Origin: Planctomycetota bacterium
GTDB taxonomy: Bacteria > Planctomycetota > UBA1135 > GCA-002686595
DNA length: 64,000 bases
NCBI GenBank assembly: GCA_014237855.1
Contig: JABACD010000011.1
Coordinates: forward strand, 1 to 64,000
Direction of reading: 5' to 3'
Of this stretch, positions 18,272 to 37,976 are shown in pieces (position 1 is the first letter of the stretch; every line of letters begins with the position of its first letter). The notes beneath the pieces are model-generated. The model ran no database searches. It was not told the DNA's origin and was given only the letters and a program-made list of their open reading frames with translations. Position numbers and translations under genes: made by a program.

Positions 18272-20893
18272 CTAGTTTCCACTCTGAGAACGAGGCAAGA
18301 GCACTCCGCCAGGCTGACTGCAAAGTTCGAAGGCCAGGTCCGCAGCACCATGATCCCCGATCCTCTCGATGACCACTGCCAGGAACGCAGGGTCCGAGAT
18401 CGAGGTGCTCTGAGAACTGGCCAGCGCACCATTGATACGAATCCACCCGGACTCCAGGTAGGTGGCGCCCATGACCTCAGCGGGGTCCGAGTTGGTGAAA
18501 TTGGCCAGGAACGAATGATCGAACACGCTGGAGATCTCTGCCAGTGAGGTCTTGTCCCAGCACGAGAAGGTGTATTCCAACGAGAAGCCCTCTTCATTGT
18601 CGTTGTAGACCAGGAAATCGAGGGTCGTTTCGAAGTGCACTCCACCGGTCAAGGAGACAAGGATCAGCTCGTTCAGGATGTATGGACCTCCGGGCTCCAT
18701 GTAACCCTGGCCGAAGAACCGAGGCACATGGATCGCATCTGGGGCTTGTTCGTACTCGACGCCATCGAGATCACGCAGGCCGTCAAGGTCCAGGTCAGTG
18801 ACCTGCCCGGTTGCACCGACGCCCTGGAATGACACGGCATTGATTCCGTACTCGATGGCCCCGACTCTGCCCCTGGCCGGAGCATTGGTCTTGCATTCAA
18901 CACAGTCCTTTTCACTCTGAATGATGAATACCTGGCCTATGAGTGAGTTATTGACGATGGGCTCGTTGGTCACCGCATCCTTCGCGAAGGCGTAGACGAA
19001 TCCACGACCCTCGTTCGGATTGTGCTCACTGGTCAGGACGGAGAGTGTGTCATTGGCCGTCAGGTACTCGGTGCGATTGAACTCACTGCAATCGTCCCCG
19101 TCGATATAGACGAACTCAACCGCGATGACGGGAGACCCGGACGCATCAACATTCGTAATCGAGAGCACAGTCGCAGATCCGGAGTCATTGTCGTACTCGG
19201 GGAAGACCAACAAGCTGCCCGCTGCTCGGCGATCGATCTGGATGCAGTCATCGGGACCGATATTCTCCCCATCCACGCTCAGGTCGAAGAGCACAGGCGA
19301 GGCCTGGCTGGCGGAAGAGCGCAAGAAGAGGACCTCTACTTCGAGGAATCTGCCAGTCTGCGCTATTCCCGCCCCGTTTGCTGTCGGAATGAAGGCCTGC
19401 GACTGAAGGCCCAGGATCGACTCCGCTGATCGTACTGACACCTCCAGGGAGGAGCCTGCGGGTACGCTCTCATTCCAGGCTGTGTTCGTCCAGCTGGTGC
19501 CACGCTGGCCACCATCGCTCACCACCGTCCAGCTTCCTTCGAGGCTGATCACCTCGACGATCTTGGGGCCGATCATGTCGCTGGGGTTGTAGGGTTGAGA
19601 GCCGGGGCGCAGGGCAACCGTCATGTCGACCATGTTGCTCGTGGGGTCGATTCTCATCGCATCATCAGACCCCTGGTTCACGACCCACATCATTCCATTC
19701 TTGTCCATTGCGAGACCTCGCGGCTGGCTGCCCGCTGTGATCGTTGCAATCGGATTGGCTGAGCTGTCCAGCCGCAAGACCTGGTTGTTACCAGAAGAGG
19801 CGACCCAGATCTCACCCGTGAGCTGATCGATGAAGATGTCGTGGAGCTGCGATGCTCCCGCCAGATTGAACAGCTGTACCTGGACGCCATCCGGGCTGAC
19901 GCGTGCCAGCTGAGTGCCTCCTGCAGTCCAGATGAACCCATCCGGTGCCACCGAGATCCCGCGCACGTTGCTCTGAACATTCGTACAGGTGGCCGCAGCC
20001 CCCCCCGGCACGTCGAGTCGGTACACCTGGCCCTCGAATTCCGAGGTAGACCACATCACACCGCTACCATCGAAGAGTCCTGCATAGCCCCCACACCCAG
20101 GGGGAATGGCGGGTGTGTTGGAGAGAATTGCCCCGGTAGCCCCGTCAATTTGATCGAAGGAGGTTGGAAAGGTCGGATAACCCCCAGCCCAGAGGTTCTT
20201 GCTGGAATCGATGGCCAGGTGTCGAATTCGCTGCGGTTGAGTCCGTTGAAAGATCAGGGTGCACTCATCCACTGCGTCCTGCACGAGGCCATTGGGACCA
20301 CCCAGACCATCCGTGACATTCGGCCAGGCGAGTACGTCTCCGAGTCCCCTGGAGGTCCGAATCAGGCCATCACCGTCGCGATCCACACAGGTGTTGCAGG
20401 CGAAGGGTCCCTTCAGATACTCACCCATGGGATTGGGCGTGCCATCGGCGTCGACTCGGGTTCCCCCGGCAATCAACCCGAACTTGGCGACCGATCCGAA
20501 GACCTCGCCCCGCTGACCGCCCTCGAGGCGATTACCGATCCAGACATCTCCATCGACCACACTCGTCGCACGGGACGGATCTCCGGCCATGCCCGCTGGC
20601 ATGCTGCGCTGCTCCGAGAGCACCTCACCGGTTTCCGTGTTGATCCGTACCACGGTGTTCAGACCACCACAGGCAACGCTCAGCACCGAGAATGGCTCCT
20701 GCTCATCCAGCTGAAGCTGATCCGTGTTGGGAGCATCGTGGTTGACCTGGACCAGCACTCCGAGATCGAAGTCTGCGTCGGTCGTGTAGGTACGGGATTG
20801 AGAGTAGGCAGCGGTGCCCAGGGTCAGGATGCAAGCAACCTGCGCCAGGCCGGCCCGCCCCACCATGCGGGTCGAATTGGATTGTCGATTCAT
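18272..20893 (-). CDS. Secreted propeller protein with YPEFDN-family C-terminal domain (paralogue 4)
   Basis: 873 residues from the ATG at 20893 (GGAGGA 12 nt upstream); signal peptide ends near AAYSQ (about 32). Residues about 35-480 form an NHL/SMP-30/streptogramin-lyase-like propeller with blades such as ISVAPDGFIWTAGGTQLARV, IFIDQLTGEIWVASSGNNQV and LAMDKNGMMWVVNQGSDDAM; streptogramin lyases have such blades but here I see only the fold. Residues about 480-555 are a small beta domain. From about 560 (SLLVFPEYDN) to the end (PRSQSGN) is the same domain as in the genes at 2567, 9152 and 11379, with an extra Cys pair insertion (KDCVECKTN). Extracellular; function unknown. Confidence 0.83.
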   Translation of the reverse strand: MNRQSNSTRMVGRAGLAQVACILTLGTAAYSQSRTYTTDADFDLGVLVQVNHDAPNTDQLQLDEQEPFSVLSVACGGLNTVVRINTETGEVLSEQRSMPAGMAGDPSRATSVVDGDVWIGNRLEGGQRGEVFGSVAKFGLIAGGTRVDADGTPNPMGEYLKGPFACNTCVDRDGDGLIRTSRGLGDVLAWPNVTDGLGGPNGLVQDAVDECTLIFQRTQPQRIRHLAIDSSKNLWAGGYPTFPTSFDQIDGATGAILSNTPAIPPGCGGYAGLFDGSGVMWSTSEFEGQVYRLDVPGGAAATCTNVQSNVRGISVAPDGFIWTAGGTQLARVSPDGVQVQLFNLAGASQLHDIFIDQLTGEIWVASSGNNQVLRLDSSANPIATITAGSQPRGLAMDKNGMMWVVNQGSDDAMRIDPTSNMVDMTVALRPGSQPYNPSDMIGPKIVEVISLEGSWTVVSDGGQRGTSWTNTAWNESVPAGSSLEVSVRSAESILGLQSQAFIPTANGAGIAQTGRFLEVEVLFLRSSASQASPVLFDLSVDGENIGPDDCIQIDRRAAGSLLVFPEYDNDSGSATVLSITNVDASGSPVIAVEFVYIDGDDCSEFNRTEYLTANDTLSVLTSEHNPNEGRGFVYAFAKDAVTNEPIVNNSLIGQVFIIQSEKDCVECKTNAPARGRVGAIEYGINAVSFQGVGATGQVTDLDLDGLRDLDGVEYEQAPDAIHVPRFFGQGYMEPGGPYILNELILVSLTGGVHFETTLDFLVYNDNEEGFSLEYTFSCWDKTSLAEISSVFDHSFLANFTNSDPAEVMGATYLESGWIRINGALASSQSTSISDPAFLAVVIERIGDHGAADLAFELCSQPGGVLLPRSQSGN

Positions 20894-33964: not shown

Positions 33965-34062
33965 TGGCGGGAGTGCATGGGAATCGAACCCACCGGCCCC
34001 GCTGTTCACGGAGCCCAACCGGCTTTGAAGGCCGGGCCGCACACCAGCACGGATCCACTCCC
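33965..34062 (-). tRNA. selC: tRNA-Sec, anticodon UCA, CCA encoded
   Basis: 98 nt reading GGGAGTGGATCC at the 5' end and CACTCCCGCCA at the 3' end. Features specific to selenocysteine tRNA: a 6-bp D stem (CCGTGC/GTGCGG) closed by a 4 nt TGGT loop; anticodon stem CCGGC/GCCGG with loop CTTCAAA, giving UCA; a long variable arm with a 7 bp stem (GGCTCCG/CGGGGCC) and 7 nt loop; and a T stem GTGGG/CCCAT with loop TTCGATT. The acceptor has seven Watson-Crick pairs; the eighth position of the long acceptor stem faces G with G. CCA is in the gene. It reads UGA as selenocysteine with SelB. It lies two genes from selD on the same strand; selA and selB are not in the window. Confidence 0.95.
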
Positions 34063-34119: not shown

Positions 34120-35634
34120 CTAGCCCCAATGCCTGGAGAACAACCTCCCGCTGCCTCCCGTCCCCGGATCGGCCGGGAGTCCACCGCTCCAGCGCCGCAA
34201 CTGCACGGATCCAGAATCGCCACGGCCATAGAATCCGCAGGTGAAGTCGACCCCCGCCTCGAGGGAGTCAAAGCCCTCAGGAAGCGCGATCTGCAGCCCT
34301 CGACTGCCGAGGCGCGTCTGTCCATCGAGCCGAGCAACTGCCTGGACATCCTTCAGGTCCCCGGGATTCTCGACCTGCACCGCCAGCTTCGCGCCCTGTC
34401 GACGGAGGGTCATCGAGGCCCGAGGTTGCGCCGGACTCTCCCGCAACATCTCCAGACGCTGGGTGATGACATCTGCCACGGCACTTCGCTGCCGACGTAG
34501 GGATTGGTCGAGCAGCAGTCGGCCTGCGCGCCTACCTTCGTCGGCATCCCACTCGTAGAGCGCTGCCAGAATGGGATCTCCACCAGGACTCCAGGATCCA
34601 CCACGAATCGAGATGTGCAGGGTCTCCCTTTCCCCAGCGGCCAGCTCCAGCACACGTGGCACCCCCTCGGTTTCGAAGACACCCCTGCGGACGTAGACCT
34701 GCACGGTCACCCGGCAGGCAAAGTCGAAGGGGTTCTTGATGAAGAGCCGGGGTGTCCAGTCGCCGCGCCACTCCCCCGTGGCCACGCCCTCACTGGAGGT
34801 CAGCACAGCCAGAGCATCCGCTCCAATGGGGTGCTCCTCGCTGCCATTGCCTGTCAGCTGAGTGAGAGCGCGCAACGCCAGGGCCCTGCGACCCTCACTG
34901 GTACTGATGCCATGCACCCCCGCTCTCATGACCTCGAAGAGCTCTCCGGCCTCGGAGAGCCCCAGGGACCAGCGCTCGCAAGGCCAGCTCTCCCGGCCGG
35001 CCTCGCCGCACCAGCCCCTTGGCCTCGTCACTCCCAGGCCATCGATTCTCTCGTCACGAACGAAGGCCAGGTCATCGTGCCCTGCGCTCTCCGCGATCAG
35101 AACGGTTCCCAGCCCCAGATCGCGGAGCTCGAGACAATCCGTGCGGCTTGTGCTCGCGACTCTCAAGGAGAGCGGCGGATGAATCGATCCCACCGCCCGC
35201 ACCAGCTCCGGAATCAGGCTGGAATCGTGCAGCTCGATCAGGTGTAGAGGTGCGTTGGCATGTGAAGAGCCGAGTTCGAGAACGTCATCGAAGTGCGGCA
35301 CTGGCTCACCAGCGAAGGACTTCCCGAACCAGCCGCCCGCATCCAGGCCGAAGAGCTCCGCGAGCCCCTGGTCCGAGACCAGGCCCTGGCCGTCGGTGGT
35401 GCGCTCCAGCGACGGGTCCCTCAGGACGACCGGGTCGCCCCCAGAGCACGAGCGGAGATCGTAGTGAAGGCCGTCCAGGCCAGCCTCCAGCGCGCACAAG
35501 AAGCTGGCCACGGTGTTCTCGGGTGCCTCCAGCGGTGCTCCCCTCCATCCGAGGATCCAGGGCGGCCCCTCGCAGGCGATTCCAGGGGCGCCAACCCCCG
35601 ATAGCTCGGCAGGAACGGGACGGGTGCGGCCCAC
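34120..35634 (-). CDS. Glycerophosphodiester-phosphodiesterase-like protein with altered catalytic residues
   Basis: 504 residues, GTG start 9 nt after the selD stop. Residues about 25-240 follow the GDPD TIM-barrel pattern (GWRGAPLEAPENTVASFLCA, then GGDPVVLRDPSLERTTDGQG). The usual HRG is WRG, the E-x-D pair reads HYD, and the second catalytic H-D is RD, so both catalytic histidines are replaced. Conserved PENT and LERTTDG remain. Residues about 270-500 are a beta-rich region with RLFIKNPFDFACRVTVQVYV, possibly an Ig-like module. No signal peptide is apparent. Probably a non-catalytic or repurposed GDPD; a role with selenium is only suggested by position between selD and tRNA-Sec. Confidence 0.72.
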   Translation of the reverse strand: MGRTRPVPAELSGVGAPGIACEGPPWILGWRGAPLEAPENTVASFLCALEAGLDGLHYDLRSCSGGDPVVLRDPSLERTTDGQGLVSDQGLAELFGLDAGGWFGKSFAGEPVPHFDDVLELGSSHANAPLHLIELHDSSLIPELVRAVGSIHPPLSLRVASTSRTDCLELRDLGLGTVLIAESAGHDDLAFVRDERIDGLGVTRPRGWCGEAGRESWPCERWSLGLSEAGELFEVMRAGVHGISTSEGRRALALRALTQLTGNGSEEHPIGADALAVLTSSEGVATGEWRGDWTPRLFIKNPFDFACRVTVQVYVRRGVFETEGVPRVLELAAGERETLHISIRGGSWSPGGDPILAALYEWDADEGRRAGRLLLDQSLRRQRSAVADVITQRLEMLRESPAQPRASMTLRRQGAKLAVQVENPGDLKDVQAVARLDGQTRLGSRGLQIALPEGFDSLEAGVDFTCGFYGRGDSGSVQLRRWSGGLPADPGTGGSGRLFSRHWG

Positions 35635-35643
35635 TGCCGCCTG

Positions 35644-36711
35644 CTAGACCAGCTCGACCGTGAAGTCGCTGCCGGGCCTGACCTCGCCGATGCAAGCCAC
35701 CAGCTGATCGCGCTCGGCGAGTTCCGCCTCCAGAGCCGCCGAGACGCTCTCGGGAACAGCGATCATGAGTCCCCCCGAGGTCTCAGCATCAAAGGCCAGA
35801 TTCGTCAGAGCATCGTCGAGGCCATCAGCCAGGGAGACGAACTCCGCCAGGCCTGCCCGGCCGCGTCGGGCACCTCCCGAGAGGTTTCCCGCCCGAGCCA
35901 GGGGCAGGACACCCGGGAAGAGCGGGACGCGCTCGAGTTCGATTCGCAGGGTGACTCCGCTGGCCTTGCCAATGTTGTGAGAGTGGCCCGCGAGGCCAAA
36001 GCCCGTGATGTCAGTACAGGCGTGTACAGCCACGGCATTCATGGCAGCAGCAGCTCGATCATTGAGCATCGCCATCTGCCTTGCAGCCGGCTCCAGCTGG
36101 GCCCACTCGATCTTGCCGAACTTCGCGGACGTGGTCATGGTGCCCATGCCGATCGGCTTGGTCAGGTACAGCCGGTCACCAACCTGGGCTCCGGCGTTCG
36201 TGCTGAGACGTGAGCGTTCGACGATCCCGGTGACCGCAAAACCAAACTGCGCCTCTGTCGACTGCACAGTATGGCCACCGGCAACGATCGCTCCCGACTC
36301 AGCTACCTTGTCGAAGCCTCCCCGGAAGATCTCGGTGATCCAGTCCTTGGGGAAGTCCTTGGGGAAGCCCGCCAGGTTCAGGACGCTGAAAGCACGGCCG
36401 CCCATGGCATAGACATCGGAGAGAGAGTTGGCAGCGGCAATGGCCCCGTAGAGGTAGGGATCGTCAACCACCGGCGGGAAGTAGTCCACGGTCTGCACCA
36501 GGGCGACACTCGAGCCACCTGGAAGACCCTCGCGCTCTCCGAGCAAGACGACCCCTGCGTCGTCGACCGAGCTTGGACCGACGATCAACCGCTCATCAGC
36601 GGGCTTCAGTACGCCGCGCAAGACCTGCGCGAGCTCCCCTTGGGGCATCTTGGCCGCTCAGCCGGCGCAATCCGCGTAGTCGGTGAGCTTCTTCTCGGGT
36701 TGAGAGTTCAT
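35644..36711 (-). CDS. selD: Selenophosphate synthetase, itself a selenoprotein (UGA at codon 18)
   Basis: 355 residues if the in-frame TGA at 36658-36660 is read as selenocysteine. Start ATG 36709-36711: the N-terminus reads MNSQPEKKLTDYADCAG, then Sec18, then AAKMPQG, matching the SelD active-site loop (usually G-[CU]-[GA]-x-K) with Sec18 and Lys21 at the catalytic positions. The rest is typical SelD: VDYFPPVVDDPYLYGAIAAA, NSLSDVYAMGG, AGGHTVQS and TGFGLAGHSHN. Automatic callers would start at the internal ATG 36648 and lose the active site. SelD makes selenophosphate from selenide and ATP for tRNA-Sec charging. It lies upstream of the GDPD-like gene (9 nt) and tRNA-Sec, the natural partner. 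Confidence 0.93.
36613..36634 (-). promoter_or_regulatory. Bacterial SECIS element within selD
   Basis: In mRNA sense: GC, a bulged U, CGCGC, loop AGGUCUU, GCGCG, GC. The loop is 31 nt past the UGA at 36658-36660. The AGGUCU loop and the single bulged U on the 5' side match the SelB-binding hairpin of Escherichia coli fdhF, though here five rather than two pairs separate bulge and loop. It lies inside the coding sequence (reading LAQVLRG), as bacterial SECIS elements do. Confidence 0.8.
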
Positions 36712-36884: not shown

Positions 36885-37976
36885 CTACTGCTCGTGCTCC
36901 TCCAGCCAGCGCCGCTGTTCCGCGCGGCTGAAGCGTAGGATCGCCTCGAACACGTCCATCACGGCCCCTGGATCGAGATCCAGAGAGCTGGCGAGCTCGC
37001 TGCGGCGCTCGAGCAATTCCTCCTCTCGCCTGGGGTCCTGAACATCTCGCCCTTCCCTCAGCTTGGCGCGTGCCGCGCGTAGGGAGAGCTGGGTACGCCT
37101 CGCCAGCAGCTCAATGAGCTCCACATCGAGTGCGTCGATAGACGCGCGAGCCTCGCCGAGTTCCTGGGGTGTCGAGGTCAGCGGAGGGATGGCCAGAGAC
37201 CTGGATCCAGCGTCCGGCCGCATCAAGTCTGGCCGTAACCTCGCTTCCGCCAGCTCCCGATGGATCCGGCTCAGAGCCTCCAGCAATCGCTCGCGCGAAC
37301 CTGCTGCGAACGGGTTGGCGTGCTGGATCGGAAAGAAGAGATGGCCTGCATCCGAACGAACAGAGTCAATCGTCCCGGCCATCGCGCGAAATGAGGGCGG
37401 CACGATCTTCTCGTCACCAATCCCCAGGTCCAGCATGCCCTTGGCGACGAAGAAGGCCAGGGCATGGGTGTCTGCCATCGTCCTGTCATGCTCCTCGCTA
37501 GACTGCTCGAAGAGGGTGCACCCCAGTCGACGGTAGAAGTCGCGTACACCTCCGAGAGCTTCCTGGTGCGGAGTATCGGGACACACCACCACTCGTAGAG
37601 GATGCTCCCCCATGGCGATACTGGTTGGCCCAAAGAGCGGGTGGGTTGAGACCCAGGGCACCGAGCTGCCGCAGATCTCCTCCATCGAGGCCCGGGCATC
37701 ACTCTTCACGCTACAGACATCGACAACCGTGTGCCCTGCCCCAAGCCATGGCCTGATCGACGCCAGGATTGCCTCGAAGCGCGAGATGGGCACAGCCAGC
37801 ATGACCAGGCCATCCTCCTGCAAGAGGTCCGACTCACTGGTCGCACACCAGGGCTCAGGAACAGCCCTCTCCGGATCAAATGCGCGGACACGAATGCCTG
37901 ACTCCGTGGCCAGCTCAGCCAGAGATTCGCCGAAGCGACCGAAGCCCATCAGGAGTAGCGGGTGCGCGCTGCTCAT
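36885..37976 (-). CDS. tyrA: Prephenate dehydrogenase with C-terminal chorismate mutase
   Basis: 363 residues. N-terminal Rossmann motif GFGRFG (11-16), VVDVCSVKS, and the prephenate dehydrogenase block STHPLFGPTS (110-119, with the substrate-region His112), then helices with HDRTMADTHALAFF (163-176). Residues about 275-360 are an AroQ-type chorismate mutase (RASIDALDVELIELLARRTQ, then DVQDPRREEELLERR). Together these convert chorismate to prephenate and then 4-hydroxyphenylpyruvate in tyrosine synthesis. In E. coli TyrA the mutase comes first; here the order is reversed. Genes on both sides are unrelated; two hairpins without T runs (36840-36853 and nearby) lie after the stop. Confidence 0.93.
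   Translation of the reverse strand: MSSAHPLLLMGFGRFGESLAELATESGIRVRAFDPERAVPEPWCATSESDLLQEDGLVMLAVPISRFEAILASIRPWLGAGHTVVDVCSVKSDARASMEEICGSSVPWVSTHPLFGPTSIAMGEHPLRVVVCPDTPHQEALGGVRDFYRRLGCTLFEQSSEEHDRTMADTHALAFFVAKGMLDLGIGDEKIVPPSFRAMAGTIDSVRSDAGHLFFPIQHANPFAAGSRERLLEALSRIHRELAEARLRPDLMRPDAGSRSLAIPPLTSTPQELGEARASIDALDVELIELLARRTQLSLRAARAKLREGRDVQDPRREEELLERRSELASSLDLDPGAVMDVFEAILRFSRAEQRRWLEEHEQ

Follow-up and report, generated by a model that had tools for sequence, protein, structure and literature searches.

Predicted selenocysteine at an in-frame UGA of selD, with a conserved SECIS-like hairpin and a nearby tRNA-Sec, in a planctomycete

The window analysed here, a stretch of 64,000 nucleotides from a Planctomycetota bacterium, contains a selD gene (selenide water dikinase, minus strand, 35644-36711) whose reading frame is interrupted once, which raises the question of whether the interruption ends translation or encodes an amino acid. 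The frame runs from an ATG at 36711 to a TAG at 35646-35644 and comprises 355 residues including position 18, and its single internal stop is the TGA of codon 18 (36660-36658), set in the context LTDYADCAG-U-AAKMPQG. A first, sequence-only reading had described the frame as continuing upstream of an internal ATG at 36648 through this one TGA into DYADCAG, and both its coordinates and its residues were correct. It had also predicted that an ORF caller would truncate the gene, and mechanical ORF calling indeed returned 36648-35644 only. The resulting product of 334 amino acids starts at the internal ATG, 3′ of the TGA and the following AAK, and therefore misses residue 18 and Lys21 (36651-36649). 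In our judgement, with a probability of about 97%, the selD of this planctomycete encodes a selenocysteine (Sec)-containing selenophosphate synthetase, with the UGA read as Sec via SelB and a hairpin in the mRNA.

The read-through product is homologous to SelD over its full length, scoring 327 bits against the TIGR00476 profile (cut-off 125) and reaching an E value of 7.5e-57 in a phmmer comparison with E. coli SelD (3u0o). Residues 6-347 align continuously with that structure, across the TGA, and the alignment places U18 on E. coli Cys17 and Lys21, three residues further on, on Lys20. We take Cys17 and Lys20 of the E. coli enzyme to be essential active-site residues. The claim that the TGA sits at the catalytic Cys/Sec position was thus borne out by the E. 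coli alignment as well as by the relatives described below, and by homology Sec18 would have the catalytic role. Three residues before it lies Cys15 (36669-36667), forming a CxxU motif; most relatives keep this Cys, while a few carry Ser or Gly. Cys15 could possibly serve as a resolving thiol.

For comparison, 61 whole genomes were considered, comprising the genome of the window itself and others from its genus, family and order, and 59 of these gave a selD match. A single in-frame TGA was present in 57 of the 59, own genome included, and Cys took its place in the remaining two (G052 and G038). In one genome (G014), the N-terminal piece bearing the TGA was located on a separate contig. The named loci belong to Planctomycetota MAGs and to the isolate Planctomycetes bacterium Poly30, whose selD (locus L067) has a UGA within the same motif. 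The TGA fell into the identical column in every TGA-containing selD extracted from the loci, with Cys in the same column in the two exceptions, and neither a frameshift nor a different local frame, either of which might have overturned the initial reading, was seen among the relatives. Since the frame 5′ of the TGA keeps its homology in the relatives and the same single TGA recurs in 57 of 59 genomes, its presence in selD is more than chance. The selD of G052 (locus L093) carries TGT for TGA, still has a hairpin of similar sequence downstream (GGACAGGTGCTGTCT), and its genome retains selB and tRNA-Sec. This gene probably represents a recent Sec-to-Cys change with a remnant SECIS, and such remnants have been described before (PMC1794560).

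Downstream of the UGA, at 36632-36614 on the minus strand, a hairpin (UCGCGCAGGUCUUGCGCGG) is predicted with a stem of 7 bp, an apical loop of 5 nt (GGUCU, containing GGU) at a spacing of 32 nt from the UGA and an energy of −9.5 kcal/mol. Published limits for bacterial SECIS elements allow a loop of 3-9 nt, an upper stem of 4-16 bp, a G within the first two loop positions, a UGA-to-loop distance of 16-37 nt and an energy of at most −7.5 kcal/mol (PMC13188914), and the hairpin of the window lies inside all of them. It is common to 43 distinct relatives, with a GGU loop (alignment A1, columns 32-39 paired with 43-50), and the same stem was recovered by RNAalifold. When the structure was supplied manually, 97.4% of the helix cells were paired, and compensatory changes, as looked for in a SECIS, were found in four of the eight pairs, counts that come from coding sequence of related genomes and hence from events that are not independent. 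The covariation measures for the whole structure, scored as the SECIS helix plus a weaker helix of five pairs, were reached by none of 500 shuffles, and slid controls were far lower. Within selD, synonymous codon diversity is at its minimum near codons 8-34; at codons 27-29, which lie in the 5′ arm of the hairpin, it is only 0.15-0.19 of the expected value. As codons 19-35, when simply compared with the remainder of selD, differed at only P = 0.024, we regard the low synonymous variation as supporting evidence and not as proof. Taken as a predicted SECIS, the hairpin fits these observations and may be bound by SelB. A second conserved hairpin directly before the SECIS (columns 17-21 with 25-29) was considered and rejected, with three of its pairs broken in 8-9 of the 43 sequences; the window's own copy contains a G-G mismatch, and the element is therefore not claimed.

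The machinery that would be required for such decoding is present. The initial reading had named selA and selB elsewhere in the genome as a check, and one copy of each was found over curated cut-offs (selA 476 bits, cut-off 268; selB 339 bits, cut-off 242), both on contigs other than the one holding selD. The tRNA-Sec gene selC, which that reading did not mention, lies within the window itself at 33969-34062 on the minus strand. It has the anticodon UCA, scores 74.7 bits against Rfam RF01852 (gathering score 47) in agreement with ARAGORN, and is the sole match over the cut-off in the genome. Consequently, selA, selB, selC and selD all occur in one genome, the gene set by which the bacterial Sec-decoding trait is recognised. 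The tRNA-Sec is encoded on the same strand as selD, 1.6 kb downstream, and this linkage extends to the relatives: in 32 genomes both genes are found on a single contig within 6 kb of each other, with the same orientation in 30 of them, and ARAGORN runs on the flanks of the named loci agree. In family f5, the tRNA-Sec begins only about 40-120 nt past selD. Over the 61 genomes, selB was found over the cut-off in 58 and tRNA-Sec in 59. No selB over the cut-off was found in G024, G026 and G030, which carry a UGA selD and are all fragmented drafts, and no tRNA-Sec was found in G024 or in G038, the latter having a Cys selD.

From these elements, the following course of events can be proposed. A ribosome translating selD would reach the UGA at codon 18, where SelB, positioned on the hairpin at 36632-36614, would deliver Sec-tRNA-Sec, so that Sec would be inserted and translation would continue to a SelD of 355 residues with Sec18 and Lys21 in its mobile N-terminal active-site loop. 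This enzyme would convert selenide and ATP into selenophosphate, which SelA would in turn use for making Sec-tRNA-Sec. As selenophosphate would feed SelA and the Sec-tRNA-Sec pool, SelD would need its own product for its own synthesis.

In-frame UGA codons are not confined to selD in this genome. Two families were sampled, FdhA and AhpC/TSA. The FdhA gene (L113, G000:C35:86194-88221) has its UGA within AATUHAPTV at the active-site Cys position, and five genes of the AhpC/TSA family contain one in-frame TGA each. Four of them were inspected (L105 and L106 at G000:C89:116226-116594 and C89:80028-80405; L109 and L111 at G000:C30:29290-29640 and C28:73033-73380) and carry the TGA at the active site, in the motifs TPGUT and TPTUS of peroxiredoxin-like and twice WUGPC of thioredoxin-like proteins; the further match is located at G000:C46:254848-255195. 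In one of the WUGPC genes no hairpin was found under a simple SECIS model, and the hairpin of one peroxiredoxin-like gene, at −3.8 kcal/mol, misses the SECIS energy limit. Judged by its sequence, the genome appears to be fairly rich in selenoproteins.

Three other explanations of the UGA in selD have to be weighed. Were it a true stop, a sequencing error or part of a pseudogene, only the protein starting at ATG 36648 would be made, which is what a standard ORF caller gives. However, the same TGA recurs in numerous genera, flanked on either side by homologous sequence, its place is taken by Cys in G052 and G038, and the short product would be left without Sec18 and Lys21. We consider this explanation highly improbable, and a frameshift, error or pseudogene was rejected on the 57 of 59 genomes that share the TGA. 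Even less credible is a genome-wide reassignment under which UGA would encode an amino acid other than Sec, for example Trp or Gly. A lone in-frame UGA would fit it too, but TGA terminates 21 of the 31 long ORFs of the window, where it is the commonest stop, so that UGA keeps its stop meaning and reassignment is ruled out by stop usage; moreover, all five in-frame UGAs inspected elsewhere (FdhA and four of the AhpC/TSA family) lie at active-site Cys positions, and tRNA-Sec, selA and selB are present.

The UGA might also be decoded partly or wholly as Cys or another residue, for instance under scarce selenium. The exchange of Sec and Cys at this site among relatives implies that Cys would be tolerated, yet the conserved hairpin and the full Sec machinery favour Sec as the normal reading, and we see only a slight chance of such decoding, if a somewhat better one than for the other two. 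Read-through with Sec is the preferred explanation, and the initial view of selD as a selenoprotein gene is supported, position 18 of the 355-residue product corresponding to Cys in E. coli SelD and to UGA or Cys in the relatives.

Compared with known Sec-containing SelD proteins (TIGR00476; structures 3u0o, 2yye and 2zau), the protein belongs to the same fold family and has the same Sec/Cys-x-x-Lys motif, and as in other bacterial genes of this kind, the UGA is followed by a SECIS, here a predicted one. Differences are restricted to lineage-specific sequence (355 amino acids, DYADCAGUAAK), with CxxU in most family members and CxxC seen in cyanobacterial relatives. Among bacterial selenoproteins, SelD and FdhA are the two with the widest distribution (PMC1794560, PMC13188914). 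Sec-decoding Planctomycetes have been reported as well, namely P1 and P2 from Porphyra, Gemmata obscuriglobus and Isosphaera pallida, with fdhA among six putative selenoproteins of P1 (PMC4807772). Sec-containing SelD is long known and common in bacteria, and there are published cases of Planctomycetes that use Sec; the find is therefore not novel. The four Planctomycetes named above share the full Sec-insertion gene set with the organism studied here, whereas the window comes from a different planctomycete lineage, near Poly30, and has tRNA-Sec near selD with selA and selB on other contigs. A partial literature search found no papers on selenoproteins of this lineage. We give roughly even odds to the view that the lineage has a selenoprotein-rich redox proteome (SelD, FdhA and several peroxiredoxin- or thioredoxin-like proteins) and a conserved selD-tRNA-Sec linkage that are undescribed for the clade. 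In practical terms, the gene model is corrected, as automatic annotation drops the predicted catalytic residue here and in dozens of related Planctomycetota. A little-studied clade of this phylum would also be one that decodes Sec in several redox selenoproteins, with no new mechanism added.

When the window was scanned by codon usage for more in-frame UGA genes, only two weak, chance-like candidates emerged, at 18830 on the plus and 13696 on the minus strand. Its cut-offs were strict and selD itself was missed, so the window may hold further such genes. Between selD and tRNA-Sec lies a syntenic ORF (34120-35634, minus strand) of 504 amino acids whose start adjoins the selD stop. It contains a partial glycerophosphodiester phosphodiesterase domain (Pfam GDPD, residues 31-121, 63.9 bits), with no family found outside these residues. 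Upstream of selD, 36885-37976 encodes a prephenate dehydrogenase fused to a C-terminal chorismate mutase.
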